DNA of 64,000 nt from contig NC_014151.1 of the NCBI RefSeq assembly GCF_000092865.1, positions 3,844,001 to 3,908,000 of the forward strand, given 5' to 3'. Positions 48,943 to 64,000 of this stretch are shown here, piece by piece (within the stretch, counting starts at the first letter, position 1; each line of letters starts with the position of its first letter). Both the position numbers and the translations under genes were made by a program. The stretch is from Cellulomonas flavigena DSM 20109 (GTDB taxonomy: Bacteria > Actinomycetota > Actinomycetes > Actinomycetales > Cellulomonadaceae). The notes beneath the pieces are model-generated. The model saw nothing but the letters and a program-made list of their open reading frames with translations. It searched no databases and was not told where the DNA came from.

Positions 48943-48966
48943 CGCAGCGCGTTGGGCCTGTCGCAC

Positions 48967-53046: not shown

Positions 53047-53404
53047 CAGGTACCCCGCTCGAGTCGAACCGCGCCGTCCCAGTCTGCCACCGACGTCACG
53101 CGCGGGTGGGCCTCCTCGCGGCTCGCCCCGGGTGCGCGTCCGTGTACCGGACCCGCCGCGATCTCGTGCTGCAGCAACAGACGGTCGGTCGGTGTCCCCT
53201 GACCGTCCCGCAGCGGCAAGCGGCTGAAGCCACGCGTCCGTCCGACAGAAGGTCGACGGACCGACGAAGCCCGTCGGGCCGACCCCGCGAGCATCCCGGG
53301 GGAGAACGCCTCTCCGACGACGGGGCCGCCACCTCCGGGGCCTCCGGGGGAAACGCGGTCGTACGACGGGACCGCGCACGGTGGCCCGGGACAGGAGGAC
53401 GGAC
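53047..53404. other. Gene-free leader region before the CHAT-linked block
   Basis: About 358 bases without a credible gene. The right half carries CCGGGGGAGA (53296-53305) and CCGGGGGAAA (53344-53353), the box found at three other points in the block. The left half contains GC-rich short repeats with no clear hairpin. Confidence 0.5.
53344..53353 (+). promoter_or_regulatory. CCGGGGGAAA box, site A
   Basis: Exact box 51 bases before the ATG of the OmpA-like gene at 53405, with a one-mismatch copy (CCGGGGGAGA) 48 bases further upstream. Confidence 0.6.
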
Positions 53405-54643
53405 ATGGGCCAGGCACGAACGAGGTGGAGCGCCGTGACCGCGGTCGCGGCAGCGGTCACGGGGCTGCTCACCGGGTGCGCGGCACCCGCGCACCCGGAA
53501 CCGCCTGGCGGTGGCGTCGAGGCGTCCTGGGGCGAGGACTGCGAGGAGATCGTGCAGGCGCCGGTCGCCGCGGGCACGTCCGTGCTGACGGTCGTCGCGG
53601 ACGGCACCGCCAGCGGGCGCGGCCTCACGGCCGCCCCCGGTGTGGGCGAGCTCCTCGCGGCGGCGCAGGCCGACGGTCTGGCGCTGGTCGTCGTCGGGGT
53701 CGACGGCCCCGGGGTGCCGCCGCCCGTCGTGGGACCCGTCAGCCTCGACCCCTACCCGGGCTCCGACTCGGTCGTGGCCGGGCGGGCACGGGAGATCGCG
53801 CTCCGGTGCGGCGCTGCGCTGCTGCACCGCCCGGAGGTGGCGCCCACGACGCCGGGGTCGGACGTGCTCGCGGCCGTCACCACCGCCGTGCGTCAGCAGC
53901 CCGCGGCGATGGGGATCCTCTCCGACGGCGTCGCGAGCGACAGCGTGCTCGACCCCGCAGTCGTCGGCTGGGAGCCCGACACGCAGGCGGTCGTCTCCCA
54001 GCTGCTGGCGACGGGCGCGGACCTGCCTGCGGAGGCGACGCCGGTGACGTGGATCGGCCTCGGGGAGACCACGACCGTCCTGCCCAGCGAGGCGCGCGCC
54101 GGGCTGGGCAGGCTGTGGACGGCGGTGCTGGGGGCGCGCGGCGCCCCGGTCACCGTCGACACGCGGACCGGCTCCACGACGACGCGCGACGTCGGGTCGC
54201 TCCCGGAGGACGTGGTGGCGCCGCCTCAGGCGACCGTCGTGGAGACGAGCACCCGGTCGGTCTGCGTCCTCCTGCCGTCGGTGCTGCTCTTCGGCCCGGA
54301 GGAGACCGAGCTCTCGTCGACCGAGCCGCTGCGGGGGGTGGTCGCCCGCGCCACCGAGGAACCGGCGTGGGTGGTCCGCGTGGAGGGCCACACCGCGGAC
54401 TTCGGCACCCCGGAAGGGCGGGCCCGGGTCTCGCAGGACCGGGCGGACGCGGTCGCGGCCGCGCTCCGCTCCCAGGGCGTGACCAACGAGGTCGTCGCCG
54501 TGGGTCGCGGTGCCGACCGGCCGCGCGCGGACGAGTGGCCGGCAGGTCCGCGCGGCCCGCACGACACCGCCGCGGCGGACGTCAACCGGCGCGTGGAGAT
54601 CCGTCTCGGCGACAGCGACGTCGTCGACGGCGTCCCCTGCTGA
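53405..54643 (+). CDS. Lipoprotein with C-terminal OmpA-like peptidoglycan-binding domain
   Basis: A 412-residue exported lipoprotein: signal peptide with lipobox LLTGC (Cys25), a central domain (about 45-270) with VLTVVADGTASGRGL at its start, which resembles the strand-and-metal-loop opening of VWA-like folds without a complete DxSxS, and a C-terminal OmpA/MotB domain (about 290-405) with the hallmark VEGHTADFGTPEGRARVSQD, RADAVAAALRSQGVTNEVV and NRRVEIRL. It should tether to peptidoglycan outside the membrane. ATG 53405 has AGGAGG 8 bases upstream. First gene of the block; the CCGGGGGAAA box lies 51 bases upstream. Confidence 0.85.
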   Translation: MGQARTRWSAVTAVAAAVTGLLTGCAAPAHPEPPGGGVEASWGEDCEEIVQAPVAAGTSVLTVVADGTASGRGLTAAPGVGELLAAAQADGLALVVVGVDGPGVPPPVVGPVSLDPYPGSDSVVAGRAREIALRCGAALLHRPEVAPTTPGSDVLAAVTTAVRQQPAAMGILSDGVASDSVLDPAVVGWEPDTQAVVSQLLATGADLPAEATPVTWIGLGETTTVLPSEARAGLGRLWTAVLGARGAPVTVDTRTGSTTTRDVGSLPEDVVAPPQATVVETSTRSVCVLLPSVLLFGPEETELSSTEPLRGVVARATEEPAWVVRVEGHTADFGTPEGRARVSQDRADAVAAALRSQGVTNEVVAVGRGADRPRADEWPAGPRGPHDTAAADVNRRVEIRLGDSDVVDGVPC

Positions 54644-54682
54644 CCCGCCCGGCCGTCCCGCCGTGACTCGGGCGTGCCCCGC

Positions 54683-54771
54683 CCGGGGGAAACGCACGAC
54701 CTACGAGTGGTGTCCCCACCCGGAGAAGACGCAGGACCGACGAGTGGTGACCCCCCACACCCCGGGGGATT
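54683..54771 (+). repeat. Three degenerate tandem CCGGGGGAAA-type units, site B
   Basis: Units begin at 54683 (CCGGGGGAAACGCA), 54720 (CCGGAGAAGACGCA) and 54762 (CCGGGGGATTCGCA), each followed by a GGACCnACGAGTGGTG-like segment (CGACCTACGAGTGGTG, GGACCGACGAGTGGTG, GGACCGACAGGTGGTG). Spacing is 37 and 42 bases. The third box ends 50 bases before the ATG at 54822, the same distance as site A. This looks like iterated binding sites of one regulator. Confidence 0.7.
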
Positions 54772-54821
54772 CGCAGGACCGACAGGTGGTGACCACCACC
54801 TCGGACGAGACGGAGGACGAC

Positions 54822-56111
54822 ATGGCGAGGAATCTCGTACCGACCGGCGGACGCGGGCGGAGCACGGCGGCCTGGATCGACAGGCTGCTGAGCCGGCCGG
54901 CGGACGGCGCGGAGCACCAGCACCCGACCCCGGCGGCCGCCGCCGCACTGATCACGGCGGTGTCGACGGCCCACCGCACGAGCGGACGCGCGCAGCGGGC
55001 GCTGCTCCGCGCGAGCAGCCGGCTCGTGCAGGCGGGGAGCAGGGTCCGGGACCGGCAGGACGCGCTCGACGCGCTCGACGCCCGGCGCGCGGACGACGCA
55101 CCCGCCACCCGCACGCGCAGCATGGCCCGCGGGCGGTACCTCCACCCCGCCACGGCGGCGGCGATCGAGGTCGTCGTGCTGCTGGCCGAGATCGGCTTCT
55201 GGTACATGCTCGGCTCGGAGACGCTGGCGTCGTCGGCCTCCCTCCTCGAGCGGCTCCCGGCGATGCTGCTGGCCGCGTTCATCCCGATGTCCGGGTTGTC
55301 CGCGGCGCACGTCGCGGGCCGGCTCGTCGGGCGGGCCCTGCACGGCGAGGTCCTGGACACCGGCCGCCGCGTGATGCTCGTCGGGTCGCTCGTGATCCTC
55401 GCGGTCCTGTGCGGGGTGACCTTCTGGCTCGTGTCGTGGCGCTACGAGGAGTCGCAGATCGGTGCGCGCGAGTTGCCGGGCGCGGCCATGGGCCTGCTGT
55501 TCGCCCTGCTGCTCCCGCTCATCGCGTACCTGCACGCGGTGTGCGTGGACCACGAGCGGCACGAGGCTGCCAAGCAGGCGTCCGAGCGCCTCCGCCTGCT
55601 GCGCGCGCTGTCGCGTGCCGGCGCGGACCTCGTCACTGCGGGCCTCCGGCTCGCAGGGATCATCGACCGTGTCCTCGACGAGATCGAGCGCGTGCTGCTG
55701 ACGGCGCAGGCGATGGTCGTCGCGGCCGACGCCGGGCGCGGCGTCACCTCGACGGTCGCCTTCGCCGAGCGCACGGCCGAGGCCCGCGCCACCCTCGCGC
55801 ACCCCTGGACGCTGAAGGTCGTGGGACCGTCGCTGCCCCTGCACGACGTGGCGCGCGCGATCGACCTGCTGACGGCGTACGCCCCCGACGAGCGCACCGC
55901 GGCACGGGTCACGGCCGTCCAGGAGCGCCTCGCGCGGGTCTTCGACCCGTCGGCCGACGCCCCCTGGTCGGCCGACGCCGCCCCCGCCGCCCCCGCGGGC
56001 GCCACGGCCGATCCGCGCACCGGGTACGCGGGGACGGCGGCCGGCGTCCCCCAGCTGGCGGTCGTCCCGAGCGCGTCCCACGACGAGCCGGCGGAGACGG
56101 AGCGGGCATGA
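54822..56111 (+). CDS. Four-helix membrane protein of the CHAT-linked block
   Basis: A 429-residue membrane protein I do not recognise. A basic helical head (about 1-105), four hydrophobic segments (about 112-132, 145-168, 184-206 and 219-241), then a long helical cytoplasmic part (about 245-395; VDHERHEAAKQASERLRLLR, IIDRVLDEIERVLLTAQ) that looks coiled-coil-like and a disordered tail. No enzyme motif is seen. The arrangement suits a membrane platform or sensor whose helical arm contacts another protein. ATG 54822 has GGAGG about 5 bases upstream. Preceded by three tandem boxes (site B). Confidence 0.75.
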   Translation: MARNLVPTGGRGRSTAAWIDRLLSRPADGAEHQHPTPAAAAALITAVSTAHRTSGRAQRALLRASSRLVQAGSRVRDRQDALDALDARRADDAPATRTRSMARGRYLHPATAAAIEVVVLLAEIGFWYMLGSETLASSASLLERLPAMLLAAFIPMSGLSAAHVAGRLVGRALHGEVLDTGRRVMLVGSLVILAVLCGVTFWLVSWRYEESQIGARELPGAAMGLLFALLLPLIAYLHAVCVDHERHEAAKQASERLRLLRALSRAGADLVTAGLRLAGIIDRVLDEIERVLLTAQAMVVAADAGRGVTSTVAFAERTAEARATLAHPWTLKVVGPSLPLHDVARAIDLLTAYAPDERTAARVTAVQERLARVFDPSADAPWSADAAPAAPAGATADPRTGYAGTAAGVPQLAVVPSASHDEPAETERA

Positions 56112-56126
56112 CCCGCCCCGTCCGAC

Positions 56127-56136
56127 CCGGGGGAAA
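56127..56136 (+). promoter_or_regulatory. CCGGGGGAAA box, site C
   Basis: Exact box 16 bases after the membrane-protein stop, 83 bases before ATG 56220 (62 before the possible CTG start at 56199). GGTCAGGGACC (56145-56155) lies just downstream. Confidence 0.55.
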
Positions 56137-56219
56137 GCCCATCGGTCAGGGACCGAGCACGGGACCGACCCACCGACGCACGTGAAGGAGAGGACACGCT
56201 GTCGTTCAAGGAGAAGTCG

Positions 56220-56465
56220 ATGGTGGCGCTGACCGTCGCCGGGTTGGCCACCGGGGCCATGTGGTACGTGCAGCCGCACACGCCCCAGGAGGTCACGGAG
56301 CAGCGGCGCCAGCAGCAGGAGTCCGACCTGTCGGACTCGCACGAGCAGGTCACCGACGAGCGGCGCCGGCAGGGCATGGAGGACGGCGAGGCGAAGCGGC
56401 GCGACCAGCTGCGCAGCTCCGAGCTCCGACCGCGGCCGGACCTGCCCCGGCTGCGGTTCCGGTGA
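56220..56465 (+). CDS. Small membrane-anchored, charged protein (81 aa)
   Basis: An 81-residue protein: one N-terminal transmembrane helix (VALTVAGLATGAMWYV), then an Arg/Gln/Glu-rich helical tail (QEVTEQRRQQQESDLSDSHE onward) facing one side of the membrane. ATG 56220 has AAGGAG 6 bases upstream. An in-frame CTG at 56199 has an equally good upstream AGGAGAGG and would give the plausible head MSFKEKS, so the true start may be non-standard. No known family. Its stop overlaps the next gene (GTGA). Confidence 0.7.
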   Translation: MVALTVAGLATGAMWYVQPHTPQEVTEQRRQQQESDLSDSHEQVTDERRRQGMEDGEAKRRDQLRSSELRPRPDLPRLRFR

Positions 56466-56971
56466 CCGCCGTGTGGTGGTCGAGCCCCGCCGTGGGCGAC
56501 TGGGTCCGCACGACGCGGACGGAGGCCACGAGCCTCACGGACGTCCTGCAGGGCGGCGGGCTCCCCGCCGGCACGCGCGGCGTCGTCGTGAGCCGGGACG
56601 GCCGCTGGGCCCGCGTGCGCGCCGAGGACACGCTCGGCACGGTCGAGGTCACCGTGCCGGCGCACCACCTGCGGGTCACGGCCCGCGGCCGGGGCGAGGA
56701 GGCGTTCGCCCGGTCGGCAGGGCTGCGGTCGGCGGTCAGGGTGGGCGCGTTCCTCGCGCTCGCCGCCCCGGTGCTGTGGTTCGTCGTGCAGTACATGTGG
56801 ATCAACCGTGGCACGGACGGTCTGCTGGTGGCGCTCGTCCTCGCGGCCCTCGACTCGGCCGCCGTGTCCCTCCTCGAGCTCGTCGACGACCCCGTCCGCG
56901 CGGTCCTCGCCGCCGGCCTGTTCGCCCTCACGGCACGGGTGGCCTTCGGCCCCCGGAAGGGGGAGCGATGA
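56462..56971 (+). CDS. Sensor-like membrane protein with an N-terminal beta domain
   Basis: A 169-residue protein: a beta-rich N-terminal domain (about 1-85) with an SH3-like look (VGDWVRTTRTEATSLTDVLQ, LPAGTRGVVVSRDGRWARVR) and two or three transmembrane helices (about 92-160). I do not recognise a family. GTG 56462 overlaps the stop of the small anchored protein, and its own stop overlaps the VWA gene (ATGA), so the three are translated as a unit. Confidence 0.78.
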   Translation: MTAVWWSSPAVGDWVRTTRTEATSLTDVLQGGGLPAGTRGVVVSRDGRWARVRAEDTLGTVEVTVPAHHLRVTARGRGEEAFARSAGLRSAVRVGAFLALAAPVLWFVVQYMWINRGTDGLLVALVLAALDSAAVSLLELVDDPVRAVLAAGLFALTARVAFGPRKGER

Positions 56972-57729
56972 CGTTCGTCGGCACGCGGTCGGGGGCCCTC
57001 GCGTCCCCCCGGCAGCTGGGCGAGCTCGCACCGCTCAGCACGGCCCGGCGCCGCCGGTGGCCGTTCGCGCTGCTGCTCGCGGCCGCGCTCCTCGGCGCCG
57101 CCGCCTGGTGGGACGCCGCACGACCGCCCACGTCGCTGGCGGAGTCCGCTCTCGTCGGCGCGCGCGGGCCGGCGTGCGTGCGCCTCGTCGTCGCGGAGGA
57201 CGTGTCGGGGTCGATGAGCGACTTCACCGCGGCCCGCCGCAGCGCGCTCGCCGAGCTGGTCGCGTGGGCGCCGCGCAACCTGCGTGCCGACGACGAGCTC
57301 GTGGTGCTCGGTTTCGCCGGGAGCACGGACGTCCCGTGGGGTCCGTGGACCGTCGCGGACCTGCCCGGCGCCCCGGGGCGGACCGGGGGTCCGGCGCTGG
57401 CGGGCGGCACGTTGCTCACCCCGGTGACGTCGACCGTGGCCCAGCTGCCGCCGACCTCGTGCGACACGCTTCTCGTGCTGCTCTCGGACGCGCAGCTCGC
57501 GGACCTGCCGGCCGCCGAGGCGCAGGGGCTGCGGGTGCTCGCCGACGCCGGCGTCCACGACCTGCGGCTCCTGGTGCCGACGGCCGCGATCGACGTGCCC
57601 GGGGAGTGGCTCGATGCGTTCCCCAGCGCCCCGCCGATCGTCGTCGACGGCACGGACGCCGCTGCGACGGGCCTCACGGTCGCGCGCATGCTCGCCCAGG
57701 TCACCGACCAGGAGGTGGTGCGCAGGTGA
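56968..57729 (+). CDS. Membrane-anchored VWA domain protein
   Basis: A 253-residue protein: one N-terminal transmembrane helix (about 31-49) and a von Willebrand factor A domain (about 68-250). The metal-ion site opens with VAEDVSGSM (Asp78, Ser80, Ser82); LVVLGFAGS follows, and TLLVLLSDAQLADLP carries the later Asp of the MIDAS. The Thr loop GGTLLTPV is also present. It would bind a protein ligand through Mg2+ outside the cell. ATG 56968 overlaps the previous stop. In the block it is the likely partner-recognition protein next to the OmpA lipoprotein and the CHAT protein. Confidence 0.88.
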   Translation: MTFVGTRSGALASPRQLGELAPLSTARRRRWPFALLLAAALLGAAAWWDAARPPTSLAESALVGARGPACVRLVVAEDVSGSMSDFTAARRSALAELVAWAPRNLRADDELVVLGFAGSTDVPWGPWTVADLPGAPGRTGGPALAGGTLLTPVTSTVAQLPPTSCDTLLVLLSDAQLADLPAAEAQGLRVLADAGVHDLRLLVPTAAIDVPGEWLDAFPSAPPIVVDGTDAAATGLTVARMLAQVTDQEVVRR

Positions 57730-57802
57730 TCGCGCCCACCCGCGTGGGTGAAACCTCGCAGATCGTCCCGAACCGGGTGTCGAGCGATGCTAGACACCCC
57801 AC

Positions 57803-59212
57803 ATGCCGGACGCGTCCCCCCCGCCCACCGTCGTCGTCCCTCCCGAGGTGCTCGCCGACGCCCTCGCCTGGGCCCCGTGGAGGTCGCGGGAGGGCATCGT
57901 GACGCGCAAGATGGTCGTCGCCCGGGCCGTGGCCGCGTGCAGGGCGCACGCCGTGCCCCTGGAACCCGTGCCCGAGCGCGGACTCAACGCGATCCTCGAC
58001 CACCTCGCCGACCTCGCATGGGTGCGGGCGCAGTACCGCGACGACGTGTGCTCGCTGGCGGGGTCCACGGACACGTCGAACCGCAAGATGCTCGCCCGCG
58101 AGCACCACACGACGGCGGACGAGCTCCTGGAGCTCACCCTCGAGTGGGGCGTGCCCGTGCTCGTCGCGACCTGGCACGCACGCCGCCTCGCGTGGGACGT
58201 GGCCAAGGAGGCGCTCGACGCGGCACCGCCCCCGCTCGCCTCCGCGTGGCGGGAGCTGTTCCGCGACAGCGCCAGCGCGAAGGGCGGGTTCGCGCGGGCC
58301 GACGTCACCGCGGCCGCCATCGGCGCGATGCAGGACCGGGCGAGCGCCGAGGCGTTCCGTGCGGCACCGCCCCTCCAGGAGCTCAGCCGCGTGGCCCACG
58401 CGTACCGGGCGGACTACCTGGAGCACGAGTTCCTGCCGCGGCTGGCCGTGCCCTCGGACCGCGCGGCGGTCCAGCGCGTCATCAGCGTCGCCCGCACAGC
58501 GGCCGGCGACGTCCGCGAGCCGCTGCTGCGACCGCGGGGCCGCTCGCTCGCCGGCCCCGCTCCGCGGGAGGCGCAGCTCGGGCTCTGGGTCGCGGACCGG
58601 GCGGCGGAGCTGGAGGAGCTCACGAAGTACGGCGCGCTGTACGCCCGCAGCCAGGGTCTGAGCGTCATCGAGGCGGAGGAGGTCGTCGAGCGGGCGTCCG
58701 TGCGGCTGCGCGGCAGCGGAGGCGCGACGACGCTGAGCGGCGAGTGGTGGAAGATCCTGCTGGACGAGCTCCGCCCGTACCGCAGGCGCCCGATCTCGGC
58801 CGAGCGGATCGAGGACGAGCTGTGGGAGTCCCCGGAGACGGTCCAGGCGGACGATGCCGCCATCGCGCGCTCCGAGGAGCTGCGGGACCGGATGTACGCG
58901 CAGCTCGCGCAGATGGAGGGGGACCCTCTCGCGCGGGAGGCGGCCGAGGTGTGGCTGCGGTCCGCCGAGGAGGTCCTCGAGGACACCGCGCAGCGACCGA
59001 CGAGGCGCAAGGTCATGCTGCGCGCACGTCAGAAGGTCAGCGAGCACCTCGTCGCCCGCGGCGTCCCGGACGAGCAGGTCGACCAGGTCCTGCGCACCGC
59101 CCGGCTCACGCTCGGCACGCTGTACGCCGCGGCGCAGCGCGAGGACGATCCGGCGCCCGCGGGTCGTCCGGACCAGGACCTGTGGGCGGTCGACGACGCG
59201 GGCCGACCGTGA
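57803..59212 (+). CDS. Protein of unknown function with a weakly sigma-like C-terminal half
   Basis: A 469-residue soluble, mostly helical protein. I do not recognise a family. The second half (about 280-440) has helices arranged somewhat like an ECF sigma factor: YARSQGLSVIEAEEVVERAS resembles a region-2 helix and a Glu/Arg-rich helix pair (LREELRDRMYAQLAQ-like) occurs later, but the resemblance is weak and the core DNA-binding residues are not certain. The first half carries LADLAWVRAQYRDDVCSLAG. ATG 57803 is preceded by GCTAGACA at 57789-57796, a possible leaderless promoter, so the gene may start its own transcript 73 bases after the VWA stop. Confidence 0.6.
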   Translation: MPDASPPPTVVVPPEVLADALAWAPWRSREGIVTRKMVVARAVAACRAHAVPLEPVPERGLNAILDHLADLAWVRAQYRDDVCSLAGSTDTSNRKMLAREHHTTADELLELTLEWGVPVLVATWHARRLAWDVAKEALDAAPPPLASAWRELFRDSASAKGGFARADVTAAAIGAMQDRASAEAFRAAPPLQELSRVAHAYRADYLEHEFLPRLAVPSDRAAVQRVISVARTAAGDVREPLLRPRGRSLAGPAPREAQLGLWVADRAAELEELTKYGALYARSQGLSVIEAEEVVERASVRLRGSGGATTLSGEWWKILLDELRPYRRRPISAERIEDELWESPETVQADDAAIARSEELRDRMYAQLAQMEGDPLAREAAEVWLRSAEEVLEDTAQRPTRRKVMLRARQKVSEHLVARGVPDEQVDQVLRTARLTLGTLYAAAQREDDPAPAGRPDQDLWAVDDAGRP

Positions 59213-59298
59213 CGGCGCGCCACCACTCCGGGACGGGCCCGGAAGACCGATCGGGTGCGAGCATCGCGCCGGACGCACGACGACCCGAAGGACATGAC

Positions 59299-60723
59299 GT
59301 GGACGATCAGACCAGGCCCGAGCGAGACGGTCTCGCGTGGGTGTGGGACGGCGCGCCTCCCGGCGCCTGGACGGTCACCGTGCCGCTCCCCCGGGGTGCG
59401 TCGTACCAGGTGGACCCGGCCGACCCGTGGACCACCGTGGGCTGGGAGATCCCGCCCGGTGTCGACGCGGGCGTCGTCGCGGTGGCGTTCGGCGAGGAGT
59501 GGGCAGCCCTGCTGGCGTCCGCACTGACGGCGGGCGGGGACCCGACGGTCCCCCGCCCGCCGCGCGTCGCCGACGGCTGGGCGCGGCTGGCCGTCGTCCG
59601 CGCCGTCGCGGGGAACGGCATCGTCACGGTTCACCCCGACCTCGTGGCGCTCGACGAGGCCCTGGCCTGGGCGTGGGCCGGTCAGGACGAGATGGCCCAC
59701 GCGCGGCTCGCGGACGCCCCGTGCATCCTCGAGGAGCTCCTCGCGGTCGCGCAGGCCGGCCTGCTGCCGGTCGCCTGCGAGGACGACGTGCGTGCCGCGT
59801 GGTCGCTGGCGGAGCGGCTGGGCCTGGACACCCCGGGTACCCCCCTGCCCGGTGGCACGGACCTCGCGGCACGCGTCGACACCACCGACGTGGCGGACCT
59901 CGCCGCCTCCGCACAGGACGACGCCCGCTCGACGTGGCTGCTCGGGCGCCTCTCCGGGGCCGCCGTCGCCGCCGGGGGCGCCGGTCTCGCGGAGGAGCTG
60001 GCCGACGCGGTGCCGGGCGACCACCCGGTGGTCCCCGCGCCGGTGCCGGTACGGCGCCCGACGATCGCCGAGGTCGTCGCGGTGCACGCCCTGCAGCCCG
60101 TGCTCGAGCAGGCCGCGGTCGACGGCCTGCCGCCGGACGACGCCCACCCCGACGGCCCCCGGGGCGGGCGCCCCGGTGGTCTGGACGGCGCGAGCGTCGA
60201 CGAGGTGCGAGCCGCGCTCGCCGTGTACCGCGAGCGGGGCGTGGCGCGTCGCGTCGCCGAGCTGGAGGCGTGGCTCGCGCAGCGCGAGCCGGACCTGACG
60301 GCCGAGCTCGCGGACCTCGTCGACGCCGACCTGGTGCTCATGGTGTGGGGCTTCGAGCTGCGCCTCGAGGGTGCGACCGCGCACCGCGGGACGGACCTCG
60401 CCGCGGGGCCCGTCCGCCTGCCGCTGGAGTCCGAGGCCCTGTTCCACGAGCTGCTGGGCCGTGCCCGGGTGGAGACCGACGGCTGGCCGGCACTGACACT
60501 GGCGCTCGACGGGCAGCACCTCACCGTCGATCTGTGGCTCCCGGCCGAGCCCGCGCGTCCGGTCGCCGCGGCACGCGTCGTCGTGCCCACGTCGTCCGGC
60601 GCGGTCGAGGTCGCGCTGACCGGGGTCGACGAGCTGCAGGCCACGGGTGCCGTGGACCTCGCGCCCGGCGCCGTGCTGACCACCGGCGCGGTCGAGGTCG
60701 TGGGGGTGCGTCATGCCGGCTGA
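59299..60723 (+). CDS. Unknown protein preceding the CHAT gene
   Basis: A 474-residue soluble protein. Its N-terminal part (about 10-60) has a beta pattern (AWTVTVPLPRGASYQVDPAD), the middle is helical with Asp/Ala-rich repeats, and the C-terminal 120 residues are beta-rich again (VEVALTGVDELQATGAVDL), like a small adaptor domain. No catalytic motif is evident. GTG 59299 is preferred over the in-frame GTG 59209, which overlaps the previous stop, because the stretch between them uses many A/T-ending codons unlike this genome and AAGGA lies 8 bases before 59299. It overlaps the CHAT gene by 11 bases, so the two are coupled and probably act together. Confidence 0.68.
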   Translation: MDDQTRPERDGLAWVWDGAPPGAWTVTVPLPRGASYQVDPADPWTTVGWEIPPGVDAGVVAVAFGEEWAALLASALTAGGDPTVPRPPRVADGWARLAVVRAVAGNGIVTVHPDLVALDEALAWAWAGQDEMAHARLADAPCILEELLAVAQAGLLPVACEDDVRAAWSLAERLGLDTPGTPLPGGTDLAARVDTTDVADLAASAQDDARSTWLLGRLSGAAVAAGGAGLAEELADAVPGDHPVVPAPVPVRRPTIAEVVAVHALQPVLEQAAVDGLPPDDAHPDGPRGGRPGGLDGASVDEVRAALAVYRERGVARRVAELEAWLAQREPDLTAELADLVDADLVLMVWGFELRLEGATAHRGTDLAAGPVRLPLESEALFHELLGRARVETDGWPALTLALDGQHLTVDLWLPAEPARPVAAARVVVPTSSGAVEVALTGVDELQATGAVDLAPGAVLTTGAVEVVGVRHAG

Positions 60724-63700
60724 GCCGCCCGCGTCCCCAGCCGACGGCCTCGGAGAGGGCCTCGACGCCTGGCGCCGCTTCATCGACACCGCCGTCGCCG
60801 CGGACGACCCGGACACCACGCCCTTCGTGCTGGCGTCGGCCGCCGCAGCGCTCGTGTCACCGTCGTTCCTTCCCAAGGACGCACCGAGGCCGGGCCTCCC
60901 CGAAGGTGATCCGAACACGGCGCTGCTGCGTCGCATCGGTGCGGAGCTGCTGGGATGGTCCGGACGCACGGACGGGACGCTCGGCGCCACCTGGCGCGTG
61001 CTGGGGCTGGCGCTGGCCACACGCCATCCGAAGGAGGGCCGAGGGCCGGTCGATGAGCTCGCCCAGCGGGTCCGCGAGGTGCAGGAGGCCGCCGACACGG
61101 CCGCGGGGATCGACCCCACCCTGCACGCCTGGGCGCTCATCGCGCTGGCCGCGATGCACCGCAACGCCCACGGTCTCGAGGCTGCCCTGGAGGCGGCCGA
61201 GCACGCGCTCGCGGTCGCCCGCACTCACCGCTCCCAGGACGACACCCCGATCCCGGTGCTCGTCGAGGCGACGGGAGGCGCCGCGTGGATCCCCGGGCAC
61301 CGCGCCGTCCAGATCATGCTCGAGTCACGGGCCCTGGCCCGGGTCGCCATCGCACGGCACATGCAGCGCGACTACGCAGGAGCAGCTGCGGCTCGTGACG
61401 AGCAGATCGACGTCACGGCGACCGTCCGCGACCAGTACCCGTCGCTGTACGCGAGCGCGCTGTCCCTGCGCTCCGAGACGGCCCTCCACCTCGGCGACCT
61501 CCCCACGGCCCTGCGCCGTGCCGACGAGCTCGCCGCCTGGGCGCAGGAGTGCACCGACACGACCACCCGACGGACGCACCTGCGCCGGGCGTCCGAGCTC
61601 GCGCTCTTCCTGGACGACTGGGACCGGGCACGCGAGCTGCGTCTGGAGCGCCTGCGCCTGTGCCTCGAGCGGGTCCTGGACCCGGTACCGGAGCTCGAGC
61701 CCGCGTCCGTGCACGCCGAGCTGCCGGCGCTGGTGCGGCGCGGGCGCCGGGCGGCGCTGACGGCGATCGGCAACGACGCCTACGAGCTGGCGCGGCTGGC
61801 GCTGAGCTCGGGCGCGGCCGAGCACGACCCCACGGTGCGCGCCGTGGCCCGCGCCTGGCTCGACGTCGCGGACGACGCCTGGGAGGACATCGCGCTCAAC
61901 GGCGCCGTCGCCGTCCGGTACCGCCGACTCGAGGCCGACGCCCTCGACGGCGCCCTGCCCCCGCTCGAGGTGGGACGGGGCATGGTCGAGTGCAGCCGGA
62001 GCTGGCGGCGTGTCGCCGGCAAGCGCCGTTCGGCGGTGCGCGCCGCCCGGCTGGGCGCTCCCGGTGACCCCGAGGTCCTCGCCCGGCTCGAGGAGCTCGC
62101 GGTCGACGCCCCCACGCTGGACCTCGCGCGCATCGACCGCGGCATCGCGCGGTGGCACCTGCGCGCCGCGGACGAGCTGACGGGGGACGCGCGCGTGCAG
62201 GCGCTCGTCGCGGCTCGTCGCCACGCGGCGTCGTCCGCCGCCGGGCTCGTCCTGCGCCGCCCCGACGGCACGGTGCTCGACCTCGATCCCGAGGCCCGCA
62301 TCGACGCGCTCCAGCTCCAGGTCGACACGACGGTGGCGCTGCGGGAGGCGGGCGCCGTCGTCGACGGCACGGACGAGACCGCCGAGCTCGCGCTGCGCGT
62401 GGCGACCCTGCCGGCTGTCGCCCAGCGCTTCGCCGCCTCGGGGAGCCGCACGCGGCGCCTCGCGCTCGAGCGCCGCTACCGCGACTGGCTCCGCGACACG
62501 ATCGTCCTGGCGGCGCGGCTGCAGGACGGCGACGCGGTCGACCAGGTCGCGGAGGTCCTGCGGCGCGACCTCGTCGGGACGATCCTCTACGGCCTCACGC
62601 AGGACGAGATGGCGCCCGGACAGATCGCCGAGCTCGCGCGCGAGCTGACCGCGACGCTCAACGCGACCGTCGAGGACCTCGACGCGGCTGACGACCCGTC
62701 CCCTGGCGACCCCTCGACCGGCCACCGCGCCGTGACGCTCGACGAGCAGCTCGACAAGACGCTCGACGTCATGGGGCAGGTGCTCGGCCCGGTCGCCCGC
62801 ACCCTGTTCGACCCCCGCACGGTCGGCGACCACACGGTGGCGGGTGCGCTGGACAGCGCCTACGGCACCCGCCGTGCGGCGGTCCTGTCGCTGGTGCTGC
62901 TGCCGTCGGACGAGCCGCAGCTGGTCCGCCACCTGGCCTGGCGCGCCGAGGACGACGGCCCGGTGGCGGAGCACCTCGACGTGGTGCCCGCGCCCCGCTG
63001 GCTCGCGGGGTTCGAGGTGGGCCACGAGCCGGAGCGGTTCTTCGCGCGCCTGACGAGCCTCCCGCGGACCGTGCTGCCCGACCACCTCGCCGGTCTGCTC
63101 GCGACGACGGACGCCGAGCACCCGCTGCCACTGACGGTCGTGCCGACCGGGCTGCTCGGCGTGCCCTTCGCGGCCCTCGTGTCGGGCGGACGCCTCGTCC
63201 TGGAGACGGCGTCGGTCGCCGCGGCGCAGTCACTGCAGGCGGTCCGCACGCTCGCCGGCCTCACCACGCCCGACGCCGAGGGCGCACCCCCGTGGGACGT
63301 GGCCGTCTACGACCTCGTCACGCTCAAGCACACCGAGGAGGAGCGGGCGGCGCTGATCGCGCAGCGGCCCAGCACCCACGAGCCGCGGACGCTCGCGGAG
63401 ATGCGGGCCGCCCTGGCCGACCCTGCGCGCCGGGGGGCGATCGGCATCCTCGCGCTCGCGGTGCACGGCACGCGCGGCGCGGACGGCTGGGCCCAGGTGA
63501 AGGTCCTCCCCAGCGGCGAGCTGCTGACGACGGGCCACGTGCTGCAGTGGTACCTGCCGCGGCTGGTCGTCGGGGCGTCGTGCAACACCGACATCCGGTC
63601 CGACGCGGGCGGCGAGCTCGGGGGCTTCCCGCTCGCGTTCCAGCTGCGCGGTGCCGCGACGATCGTCGGCAGCCTGCACTACGTCGAGGACGCCGCGACG

Positions 63701-63862
63701 GCCGAGATCATGGCGGTGTTCTACGCCGCCGTCGGCGCGGGCATGGGCACGGCGGACGCGCTGCGGCACGCGCAGCTGACGTGGGTGAACCGGGACCGCG
63801 CGGCGCGGCTGGCCGACAAGTCACGGTGGGCGTACCTGCTCTGCTACGGGCTGCCGGGCTGA
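60713..63862 (+). CDS. CHAT domain protein (caspase-fold) with helical repeats
   Basis: A 1049-residue protein. Residues about 100-340 are paired helices of TPR type (VDPTLHAWALIALAAMHRNA-like units, MQRDYAGAAAARDEQIDV, LGDLPTALRRADELAAWAQE), about 340-740 are further helices, and about 780-1049 form a CHAT domain of the caspase/separase fold. The catalytic pair is intact: His918 in ALAVHGTRGADGW and Cys957 in VVGASCNTD (the LSACxT region of the family), followed by GGFPLAFQLRGAATIVGSLH and the closing AYLLCYGLPG. CHAT proteins cleave proteins after activation by partners; several are effectors of bacterial conflict systems. ATG 60713 overlaps the previous gene by 11 bases. Confidence 0.9.
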   Translation: MPAEPPASPADGLGEGLDAWRRFIDTAVAADDPDTTPFVLASAAAALVSPSFLPKDAPRPGLPEGDPNTALLRRIGAELLGWSGRTDGTLGATWRVLGLALATRHPKEGRGPVDELAQRVREVQEAADTAAGIDPTLHAWALIALAAMHRNAHGLEAALEAAEHALAVARTHRSQDDTPIPVLVEATGGAAWIPGHRAVQIMLESRALARVAIARHMQRDYAGAAAARDEQIDVTATVRDQYPSLYASALSLRSETALHLGDLPTALRRADELAAWAQECTDTTTRRTHLRRASELALFLDDWDRARELRLERLRLCLERVLDPVPELEPASVHAELPALVRRGRRAALTAIGNDAYELARLALSSGAAEHDPTVRAVARAWLDVADDAWEDIALNGAVAVRYRRLEADALDGALPPLEVGRGMVECSRSWRRVAGKRRSAVRAARLGAPGDPEVLARLEELAVDAPTLDLARIDRGIARWHLRAADELTGDARVQALVAARRHAASSAAGLVLRRPDGTVLDLDPEARIDALQLQVDTTVALREAGAVVDGTDETAELALRVATLPAVAQRFAASGSRTRRLALERRYRDWLRDTIVLAARLQDGDAVDQVAEVLRRDLVGTILYGLTQDEMAPGQIAELARELTATLNATVEDLDAADDPSPGDPSTGHRAVTLDEQLDKTLDVMGQVLGPVARTLFDPRTVGDHTVAGALDSAYGTRRAAVLSLVLLPSDEPQLVRHLAWRAEDDGPVAEHLDVVPAPRWLAGFEVGHEPERFFARLTSLPRTVLPDHLAGLLATTDAEHPLPLTVVPTGLLGVPFAALVSGGRLVLETASVAAAQSLQAVRTLAGLTTPDAEGAPPWDVAVYDLVTLKHTEEERAALIAQRPSTHEPRTLAEMRAALADPARRGAIGILALAVHGTRGADGWAQVKVLPSGELLTTGHVLQWYLPRLVVGASCNTDIRSDAGGELGGFPLAFQLRGAATIVGSLHYVEDAATAEIMAVFYAAVGAGMGTADALRHAQLTWVNRDRAARLADKSRWAYLLCYGLPG

Positions 63863-63868
63863 GGCGGG

Positions 63869-63878
63869 CCGGGGGAAA
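63869..63878 (+). promoter_or_regulatory. CCGGGGGAAA box, site D
   Basis: Exact box starting 7 bases after the CHAT stop and ending 37 bases before ATG 63916. Confidence 0.55.
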
Positions 63879-63915
63879 GGCCATGTGTCATCACCCCACG
63901 ACCCGGGAGGCCCTG

Positions 63916-64000
63916 ATGACCACCACCGATCTCCTCACCGCACCGCCCGCACGCCGCGGCCGCGCTCTGCACCTGGTCGACCTGCAGAACCTCGTGGGGA
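63916..64000 (+). CDS. N-terminal fragment, possible NYN/PIN-like protein (cut by window edge)
   Basis: Only 28 residues are in the window: MTTTDLLTAPPARRGRALHL followed by VDLQNLVG. The LHLVDLQNLVG segment matches the first strand and metal-binding Asp of NYN/PIN-like RNase domains in actinobacteria (the usual LVDLENL), but this is too little to be sure. ATG 63916 has GGGAGG 6 bases upstream and box D 37 bases before, so it belongs to the same regulatory group. An RNase next to a CHAT protein would suit a toxic effector. Confidence 0.5.
   Translation, partial: MTTTDLLTAPPARRGRALHLVDLQNLVG

Follow-up and report, generated by a model that had tools for sequence, protein, structure and literature searches.

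A TPR-CHAT protease operon with a partner protein and a sigma-like gene in Cellulomonas flavigena: a possible protease-gated switch linked to the cell envelope

The chromosome of Cellulomonas flavigena DSM 20109 (NC_014151.1, a single contig of 4.12 Mb) harbors, in the stretch of 64,000 nucleotides from position 3,844,001 to 3,908,000 analyzed here (“the window”), a run of ten plus-strand genes at 53381-66104, which extends past the window edge at 64000 into the right flank fetched in addition. All coordinates refer to the window unless another locus is named; adding 3844000 converts them to genome coordinates. The core of this operon is X-Y-CHAT, a protease-partner-sigma module that is also found without envelope genes. 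Tentatively, and with slightly less than even confidence, we read the operon as a sigma switch that is gated by a protease and connected to an envelope module, much like the Csx29-Csx30-sigma arm of type III-E CRISPR systems without the CRISPR; both cleavage and sensing are steps that we infer. The reading is based on the association of Y with CHAT, an invariant His/Cys dyad, sigma genes adjoining the module, envelope genes that recur in related loci while control genes from the same window do not (0/42), and the precedent of Csx29.

The gene order is OmpA lipoprotein, TM4, small1, TM2, VWA, X, Y, TPR-CHAT, NYN-like and Clp-type AAA+ (Table 1). The junctions measure, in this order, 178, 87, -4, -4, 73, 86, -11, 53 and -4 bases, where the second amounts to 87 bases with a small1 start at 56199 and to 108 bases with the ATG at 56220. 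A preliminary description, made from the window sequence alone, had reported consecutive plus-strand genes with tight overlaps. The consecutive arrangement is confirmed and comes to a total of ten genes once the right flank is added, but genes overlap at only four of the nine junctions (-4, -4, -11 and -4 bases), the other five being gaps of 53 to 178 bases. The cluster also does not end with the NYN gene at the edge: the Clp-type AAA+ ATPase gene comes after it, and downstream of the AAA stop codon the next genes lie on the opposite strand. Besides this ATPase, the sigma-like character of X, listed as one of two unassigned soluble proteins, had been overlooked.

Table 1. Genes of the operon (window coordinates)
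Gene	Coordinates	Strand	Assignment and evidence
OmpA lipoprotein	53381..54643	+	Lipobox ...LLTG-C; VWA-like N-terminal domain; C-terminal OmpA peptidoglycan-binding domain (Pfam OmpA E 3.2e-10)
TM4	54822..56111	+	Membrane protein; four predicted helices with helical flanks (hydropathy)
small1	56220..56465	+	81 aa; hydrophobic N-terminus; homologues in L025 and L027
TM2	56462..56971	+	Small membrane protein; two predicted helices (hydropathy)
VWA	56968..57729	+	Single helix; divergent VWA domain, DVSGS (sequence, hydropathy)
X	57803..59212	+	Probable divergent ECF-type sigma factor; sigma-like residues 255-449; alpha-helical N-terminal extension of ~250 residues (predicted model)
Y	59299..60723	+	Partner protein; conserved part is the C-terminal ~150 residues; directly upstream of TPR-CHAT
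TPR-CHAT	60713..63862	+	Predicted cysteine protease, 1049 aa; Pfam CHAT E 3.7e-18; His918/Cys957
NYN-like	63916..64407 (window part 63916..64000)	+	Putative NYN-like (PIN-fold) nuclease; Pfam NYN E 3.7e-4, 21.5 bits vs cut-off 24.2
Clp-type AAA+	64404-66104	+	AAA+ ATPase; AAA_2 E 5.2e-27; ClpA model E 5.1e-54

The CHAT domain of the predicted protease scores 66.4 bits against a Pfam cut-off of 24. The His918/Cys957 pair, described earlier as intact, is invariant in all 24 aligned proteins (the query plus 23 of 25 homologues, the partial sequences P0031 and P0035 being excluded), so that loss across homologues is not seen. The TPR half of the name is less secure, with Pfam TPR_10 at E 0.13 in the window protein and the family profile matching LGN TPRs at E 0.0029. 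At least 25 homologues occur among the best 8000 candidates, most of them full length with 41-48% identity, and the closest among those listed is from Cellulomonas dongxiuzhuiae (87% identity). A CHAT scan of genome contigs returned four loci, and in the family of the Dactylosporangium genome the protein was found in 3 of 300 genomes, that genome included. Plasmids yielded two near-identical Rhodococcus records at 30% identity; viral contigs contained no relatives and phages no match. The family profile did not match Csx29 in PDB. The same C. flavigena genome encodes a second CHAT-domain gene outside the window (G000:C1:2973084-2973767, L001; E 9.7e-30), which the TPR-CHAT family profile does not recover.

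Seven loci are readable around the protease gene: the window and those of Dactylosporangium (L005), Propionibacteriaceae UBA6238 (L006), Pseudarthrobacter (L008), a Rhodococcus plasmid (L010) and the genomes G615 (L016) and G525 (L017); L007, which meets a contig edge, and the Rhodococcus plasmid locus L011, near-identical to L010, were excluded. In all seven the TPR-CHAT start is preceded by a Y-like gene, which ends there or slightly ahead of it. Similarity to window Y was detected with phmmer in L006 (6e-4), L008 (6.1e-6) and L017 (2.4e-10), while alignment identity is 39-41% in L005, 28% in L016 and 21-25% in L010, where Y is assigned by position and alignment only. A Y profile matched no PDB sequence. 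Further features of these loci are a resemblance of the L016 CHAT start to protein P0021 of Actinoplanes octamycinicus, a protein of 851 aa that matches TPR weakly, possibly another sensor, upstream of sigma-Y-CHAT in Dactylosporangium (L005:5846-8401), and conservon-like actinobacterial genes before Y-CHAT in L017 (G525:C22; roadblock-type, DUF742-like and small GTPase, identified by eye).

Directly upstream of Y, Pfam recognizes a sigma gene in three of the seven loci (L005, r4 6e-11; L016, r4 5.8e-10; L010, r2 1e-9), and this is the position that X occupies in the window. The corresponding gene of L006 shows sub-threshold sigma matches (TIGR02937 E 0.036; phrog_1740 E 0.016) and is, by its sequence, likely a sigma gene as well; in L008 and L017 no sigma gene adjoins Y. 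X itself has an AlphaFold model of low confidence (mean pLDDT 46.9; best part about residues 360-440). When this model was compared with PDB structures, ranking by Z put sigma factors in rows 1-13 and 15, their alignments falling on model residues 255-451, and residues 260-324 superposed on SigE with a root-mean-square deviation of 2.6 over 65. Alignments covering both domains deviate by 9 to 25, which fits a differing domain orientation and equally fits a loose match. Rows with other folds (Cdc37, F-BAR, ABC exporter and others) mostly concern residues 55-141. From model and position we regard X as a probable divergent extracytoplasmic function (ECF)-type sigma factor. A protein search with X (P0004) returned a single relative, from C. 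dongxiuzhuiae; there was no match in plasmids or in 57 other genomes, and hhalign of window X with plasmid X gave E 0.61. The ECF sigma gene adjoining Y-CHAT in L016 (8900-9760) encodes two predicted N-terminal transmembrane helices (residues 17-35 and 43-61; start codon uncertain), and the protease could therefore free the L016 sigma factor from the membrane.

The envelope genes bear out the preliminary description in part. The OmpA-domain lipoprotein and the four-helix membrane protein TM4 are confirmed. The two small membrane proteins are confirmed for TM2, but small1 has no helix above the hydropathy cut-off, and the membrane VWA protein does have one helix and a DxSxS site reading DVSGS (by eye) but stays under every Pfam VWA cut-off (VWA_CoxE comes closest, E 0.04). 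The VWA-like reading of the lipoprotein N-domain comes from the sequence; Pfam VWA gives E 0.12 in its L027 homologue, which is below the cut-off.

Relatives of these genes were found elsewhere, and a plasmid search with the L006 lipoprotein returned three records with an OmpA protein. On Rhodococcus ruber plasmid pYYL1.1 (L027), homologues of six of the ten operon genes lie on one strand beside a 440-aa CHAT protein: the lipoprotein N-domain only (5.3e-30), small1 (6e-9), TM2 (1.9e-25 for an open reading frame extended past the annotated gene, 3.6e-18 for the annotated gene), TM4 (3.3e-20), NYN-like (1.7e-19) and Y (1.6e-6), with a gene of 479 aa, near X in size, before Y. Plasmid p4 of Rhodococcus DN22 (L025) combines homologues of NYN-like, TM2 (8.3e-25), the OmpA lipoprotein (8e-8), small1 (2.5e-11) and Y (2.4e-10) with a four-helix protein, in the order X-position, Y, CHAT. 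Plasmid pNSL1 (L024) carries an OmpA lipoprotein (1.8e-11), a four-helix protein, an X-position gene, a Y akin to the L025 one, CHAT and several TPR genes, and the L006 contig has part of the envelope gene homologues, including the lipoprotein (BLASTP 1e-6), together with Y, NYN-like and CHAT; its four-helix protein shows no similarity to TM4 (BLASTP). Nocardia plasmid pPE-7 (L026) encodes an OmpA lipoprotein, which matches those of L006 and L025 and not directly that of the window, a four-helix protein resembling its L006 counterpart (5.9e-13) and a sigma-like gene (TIGR02983 E 6e-5), with no annotated CHAT gene within the 27 kb fetched. Between its four-helix and OmpA genes lies a small protein with a HExxHxxGxxH zinc-protease motif (L026:12355-12846; by eye). 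In whole-genome searches at E 0.001 the window lipoprotein had no counterpart in the L006 genome; of the six genomes covered, it matched its own and G525 (OmpA domain alone) and nothing else.

Chance aggregation of genes was rejected as an explanation, since none of the 42 other open reading frames of the window matches L006 or L024-L027 and operon genes do. At the control settings (default filters, E 1e-4) these are 5/10 in L027, 4/10 in L025, 2/10 in L006 and 0/10 in both L024 and L026; with filters off and E 0.01 the related loci give more operon matches. The joint recurrence in other genomes that the preliminary description had proposed to look for is thus largely present: envelope homologues, Y, NYN-like and CHAT stand together on two Rhodococcus plasmids and partly in the Propionibacteriaceae contig. 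The VWA gene, envisaged as a central conserved part, was not found to be one and has no sequence match in L024-L027. His and Cys are kept in all four short CHAT proteins (by eye). Short CHAT genes also occur outside this gene set, because on Streptomyces plasmid L028 a TPR gene is the only one recognized beside CHAT.

According to the switch reading, X would be an ECF-type sigma factor kept inactive by or with Y. When the envelope is disturbed (by an entering phage, by conjugative entry or by damage to the wall), the surface module would sense this and TPR-CHAT would become active, cutting Y, or the extension of X, and so freeing X to redirect transcription; the AAA+ protein would remove or remodel fragments, and the NYN-like protein would attack RNA as a costly arm. 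The restraint of X by Y, the cleavage of Y or X, the envelope control of CHAT and the downstream action of the NYN-like and AAA+ proteins are what we infer, as is the relay from outside detection to the protease that had been suggested before.

Two results weigh against this scenario. Tests of X as a sigma factor by sequence were without significance, and for this reason, and because the fold match comes from a poor model, we call X a probable sigma factor and not a shown one. Furthermore, L005, L016, L008, L017 and L010/L011 have CHAT and Y but no envelope genes, with CHAT identities of 41-46%, or 30% for the Rhodococcus NJ-530 type. The proposed envelope link stands as far as the envelope genes recur, but in these more distant relatives the core does without them.

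The strongest competing explanation, though in our view an unlikely one, is an abortive defence in which CHAT cuts and switches on the NYN-like ribonuclease or another partner and X and Y are structural adaptors. The possible NYN-type protein noted earlier at the window edge is indeed an NYN-like gene, but its 21.5 bits, like the 23.6 bits in L006 and 21.1 bits in L027, stay under the Pfam cut-off in all three cases; the records of L025 and L027 annotate their homologues as NYN domain-containing. The D of a DLxN motif, AD and GD are kept in all four NYN-like homologues, and these conserved acidic residues we take to be the NYN/PIN active-site motif. Such homologues accompany the system in the window, L006, L025 and L027, the two short-CHAT plasmids L025 and L027 combine the gene with no recognized sigma gene, and protease-activated nuclease proenzymes have been reported from antiviral systems (PMC12799240). 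On the other hand, the core-only loci L005, L008, L016 and L017 yield only chance-level NYN matches (E 0.004 or weaker), none is annotated in L010/L011, and the L005 and L008 genomes, two of the three searched, contain no NYN match at all. The window AAA+ gene was not found in L024-L027 apart from one chance-level AAA match in L026 (E 0.0056). On a Herbiconiux plasmid (L029:9950-15021) genes for a penicillin-binding transpeptidase and a PP2C phosphatase come after an NYN homologue.

The location of relatives on plasmids raises a second and somewhat less likely scenario, namely a plasmid-borne function, or one of an integrative and conjugative element, in conjugation (entry exclusion, mating-pair sensing or plasmid competition) rather than in phage defence or envelope stress. 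Among these plasmids pYYL1.1 is typed as conjugative, DN22 p4 as mobilizable and pNSL1 and pPE-7 as non-mobilizable; the core-only loci L010/L011 reside on small Rhodococcus plasmids, and TraG/AAA_10-like and TrbL-like genes adjoin the system in L006 (18160-22630), with matches below the Pfam cut-offs. Yet the window copy is chromosomal, the contig that holds L016 measures 10.3 Mb, and the five genes flanking the operon that were run against Pfam included no transfer genes, a wider transfer-gene search not having been made.

The operon is rare. The CHAT family profile detected it in 1/81 genomes of the genus (E 1e-30), 1/394 of the class (1e-60) and 1/396 of the phylum (1e-30), which is the window’s own genome each time, the class and phylum samples overlapping. 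At least two species carry the system, since homologues of X and CHAT exist in C. dongxiuzhuiae, both on one contig of 343,629 bases; this copy is known from the protein search only and does not show up in the 81 genomes. The sigma gene to the right of the operon is kept in 12 relatives besides the window genome, three of which were compared. The block is absent in all three: to the left, DNA matches stop at 48947, 50413 or 51843, and to the right they begin again at 66110, 66110 and 66081, no more than about 30 bases from the final stop codon. In the relatives themselves the two flanking matches lie 24, about 310 and about 1440 bases apart. The acquired block thus has its right edge where the AAA gene ends; on the left the edge varies between relatives, and the block may take in the MarR and hydrolase genes to the left. 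Judged from these sequence comparisons, the operon is an accessory, horizontally acquired block. The third relative, G016, has a different 412-aa open reading frame at the same chromosomal spot (L021:12054-13292, reverse-complement coordinates), and the site may therefore be a hotspot. A tRNA-Ser (cga) gene is located on the minus strand at 2725-2810, far from the operon. An endogenous envelope-stress regulator, whose surface module would report peptidoglycan damage and which would switch on a repair regulon and play no part in conflict, would agree with an OmpA-type anchor and membrane proteins adjoining a sigma-like gene and with sigma release under protease control as known for RseA/RpoE (available text of PMC10028731), but is improbable given one carrier in 81 genus genomes, a site lacking the block in 3/3 compared relatives and plasmid-borne relatives.

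For the switch reading the type III-E CRISPR arm is the closest precedent. In the available text of PMC10028731, Csx30 inhibits the ECF sigma factor CASP-sigma and is cleaved by Csx29, and TPR-CHAT is likewise encoded with a partner and an ECF sigma factor in L005, L016 and L010. Unlike that arm, the operon adds an envelope module, an NYN-like gene and an AAA+ gene, and its named relatives are all Actinomycetota. The label Craspase was rejected, as Pfam scans of the operon proteins (for the AAA protein, the best 25 of 32 matches) revealed no cas genes and no Cas7-11 (gRAMP) encoded with the protease, the rest of the genome not having been searched for cas genes or CRISPR arrays.

The MoxR-vWA ternary conflict systems, which include iSTAND types with OmpA/PEGA effectors, also combine vWA, AAA+, a caspase-fold protease and OmpA domains, the latter in some iSTAND systems (Kaur 2020, PMC7159879, as far as its available text goes). 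In contrast, the operon ATPase is Clp-type, with bpMoxR below its cut-off (E 0.067), the VWA protein is membrane-bound and not conserved in L024-L027, and the Pfam scans list no iSTAND or VMAP match for any of the operon proteins; with Clp models the best for the ATPase, this label was rejected too. EACC2 systems, in which genes for ECF sigma factors and DUF1822 TPR proteins accompany a caspase-fold protease (Kaur 2021, PMC8195603, available portion), share with the operon the link of a protease of the caspase superfamily with a TPR protein and with an ECF sigma gene, for which X is the candidate here, but no EACC2 or DUF1822 match is listed for the operon proteins in Pfam. Zorya (ZorA/ZorB) resembles the operon in an OmpA-type peptidoglycan anchor beside a multi-helix membrane protein. 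This label was rejected because none of the eight operon proteins scanned with PADLOC (NYN-like and AAA+ were outside the scan) matches the MotA-like ZorA and the ZorB match to the OmpA part is weak (E 0.0027, 15.3 bits); the sole PADLOC match of TM4 is PD-Lambda-3_B (E 0.01). As far as the available portions of these papers describe them, none of the CRISPR type III-E, EACC2 and iSTAND systems equals the operon gene set, and literature searches, with most subscription journals outside their reach, found no description of it.

Taken further, and more doubtfully than the switch itself, the loci may represent a modular CRISPR-free “CHAT-sigma” circuit in actinobacteria, in which TPR-CHAT would free a sigma factor from Y. 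Different sensors would have been connected to this circuit, in the window and the Rhodococcus plasmids an OmpA/TM4 envelope complex together with an NYN-like nuclease, and the Craspase protease arm would be a single instance, captured by CRISPR, of a more general logic. The analysis supplies Y as the partner, X as the candidate sigma factor and, for comparison, naturally occurring loci that either have or lack the envelope genes. If the switch reading is true, TPR-CHAT protease-gated sigma release would extend beyond type III-E CRISPR, and an actinobacterial envelope module would be tied to a caspase-fold protease.

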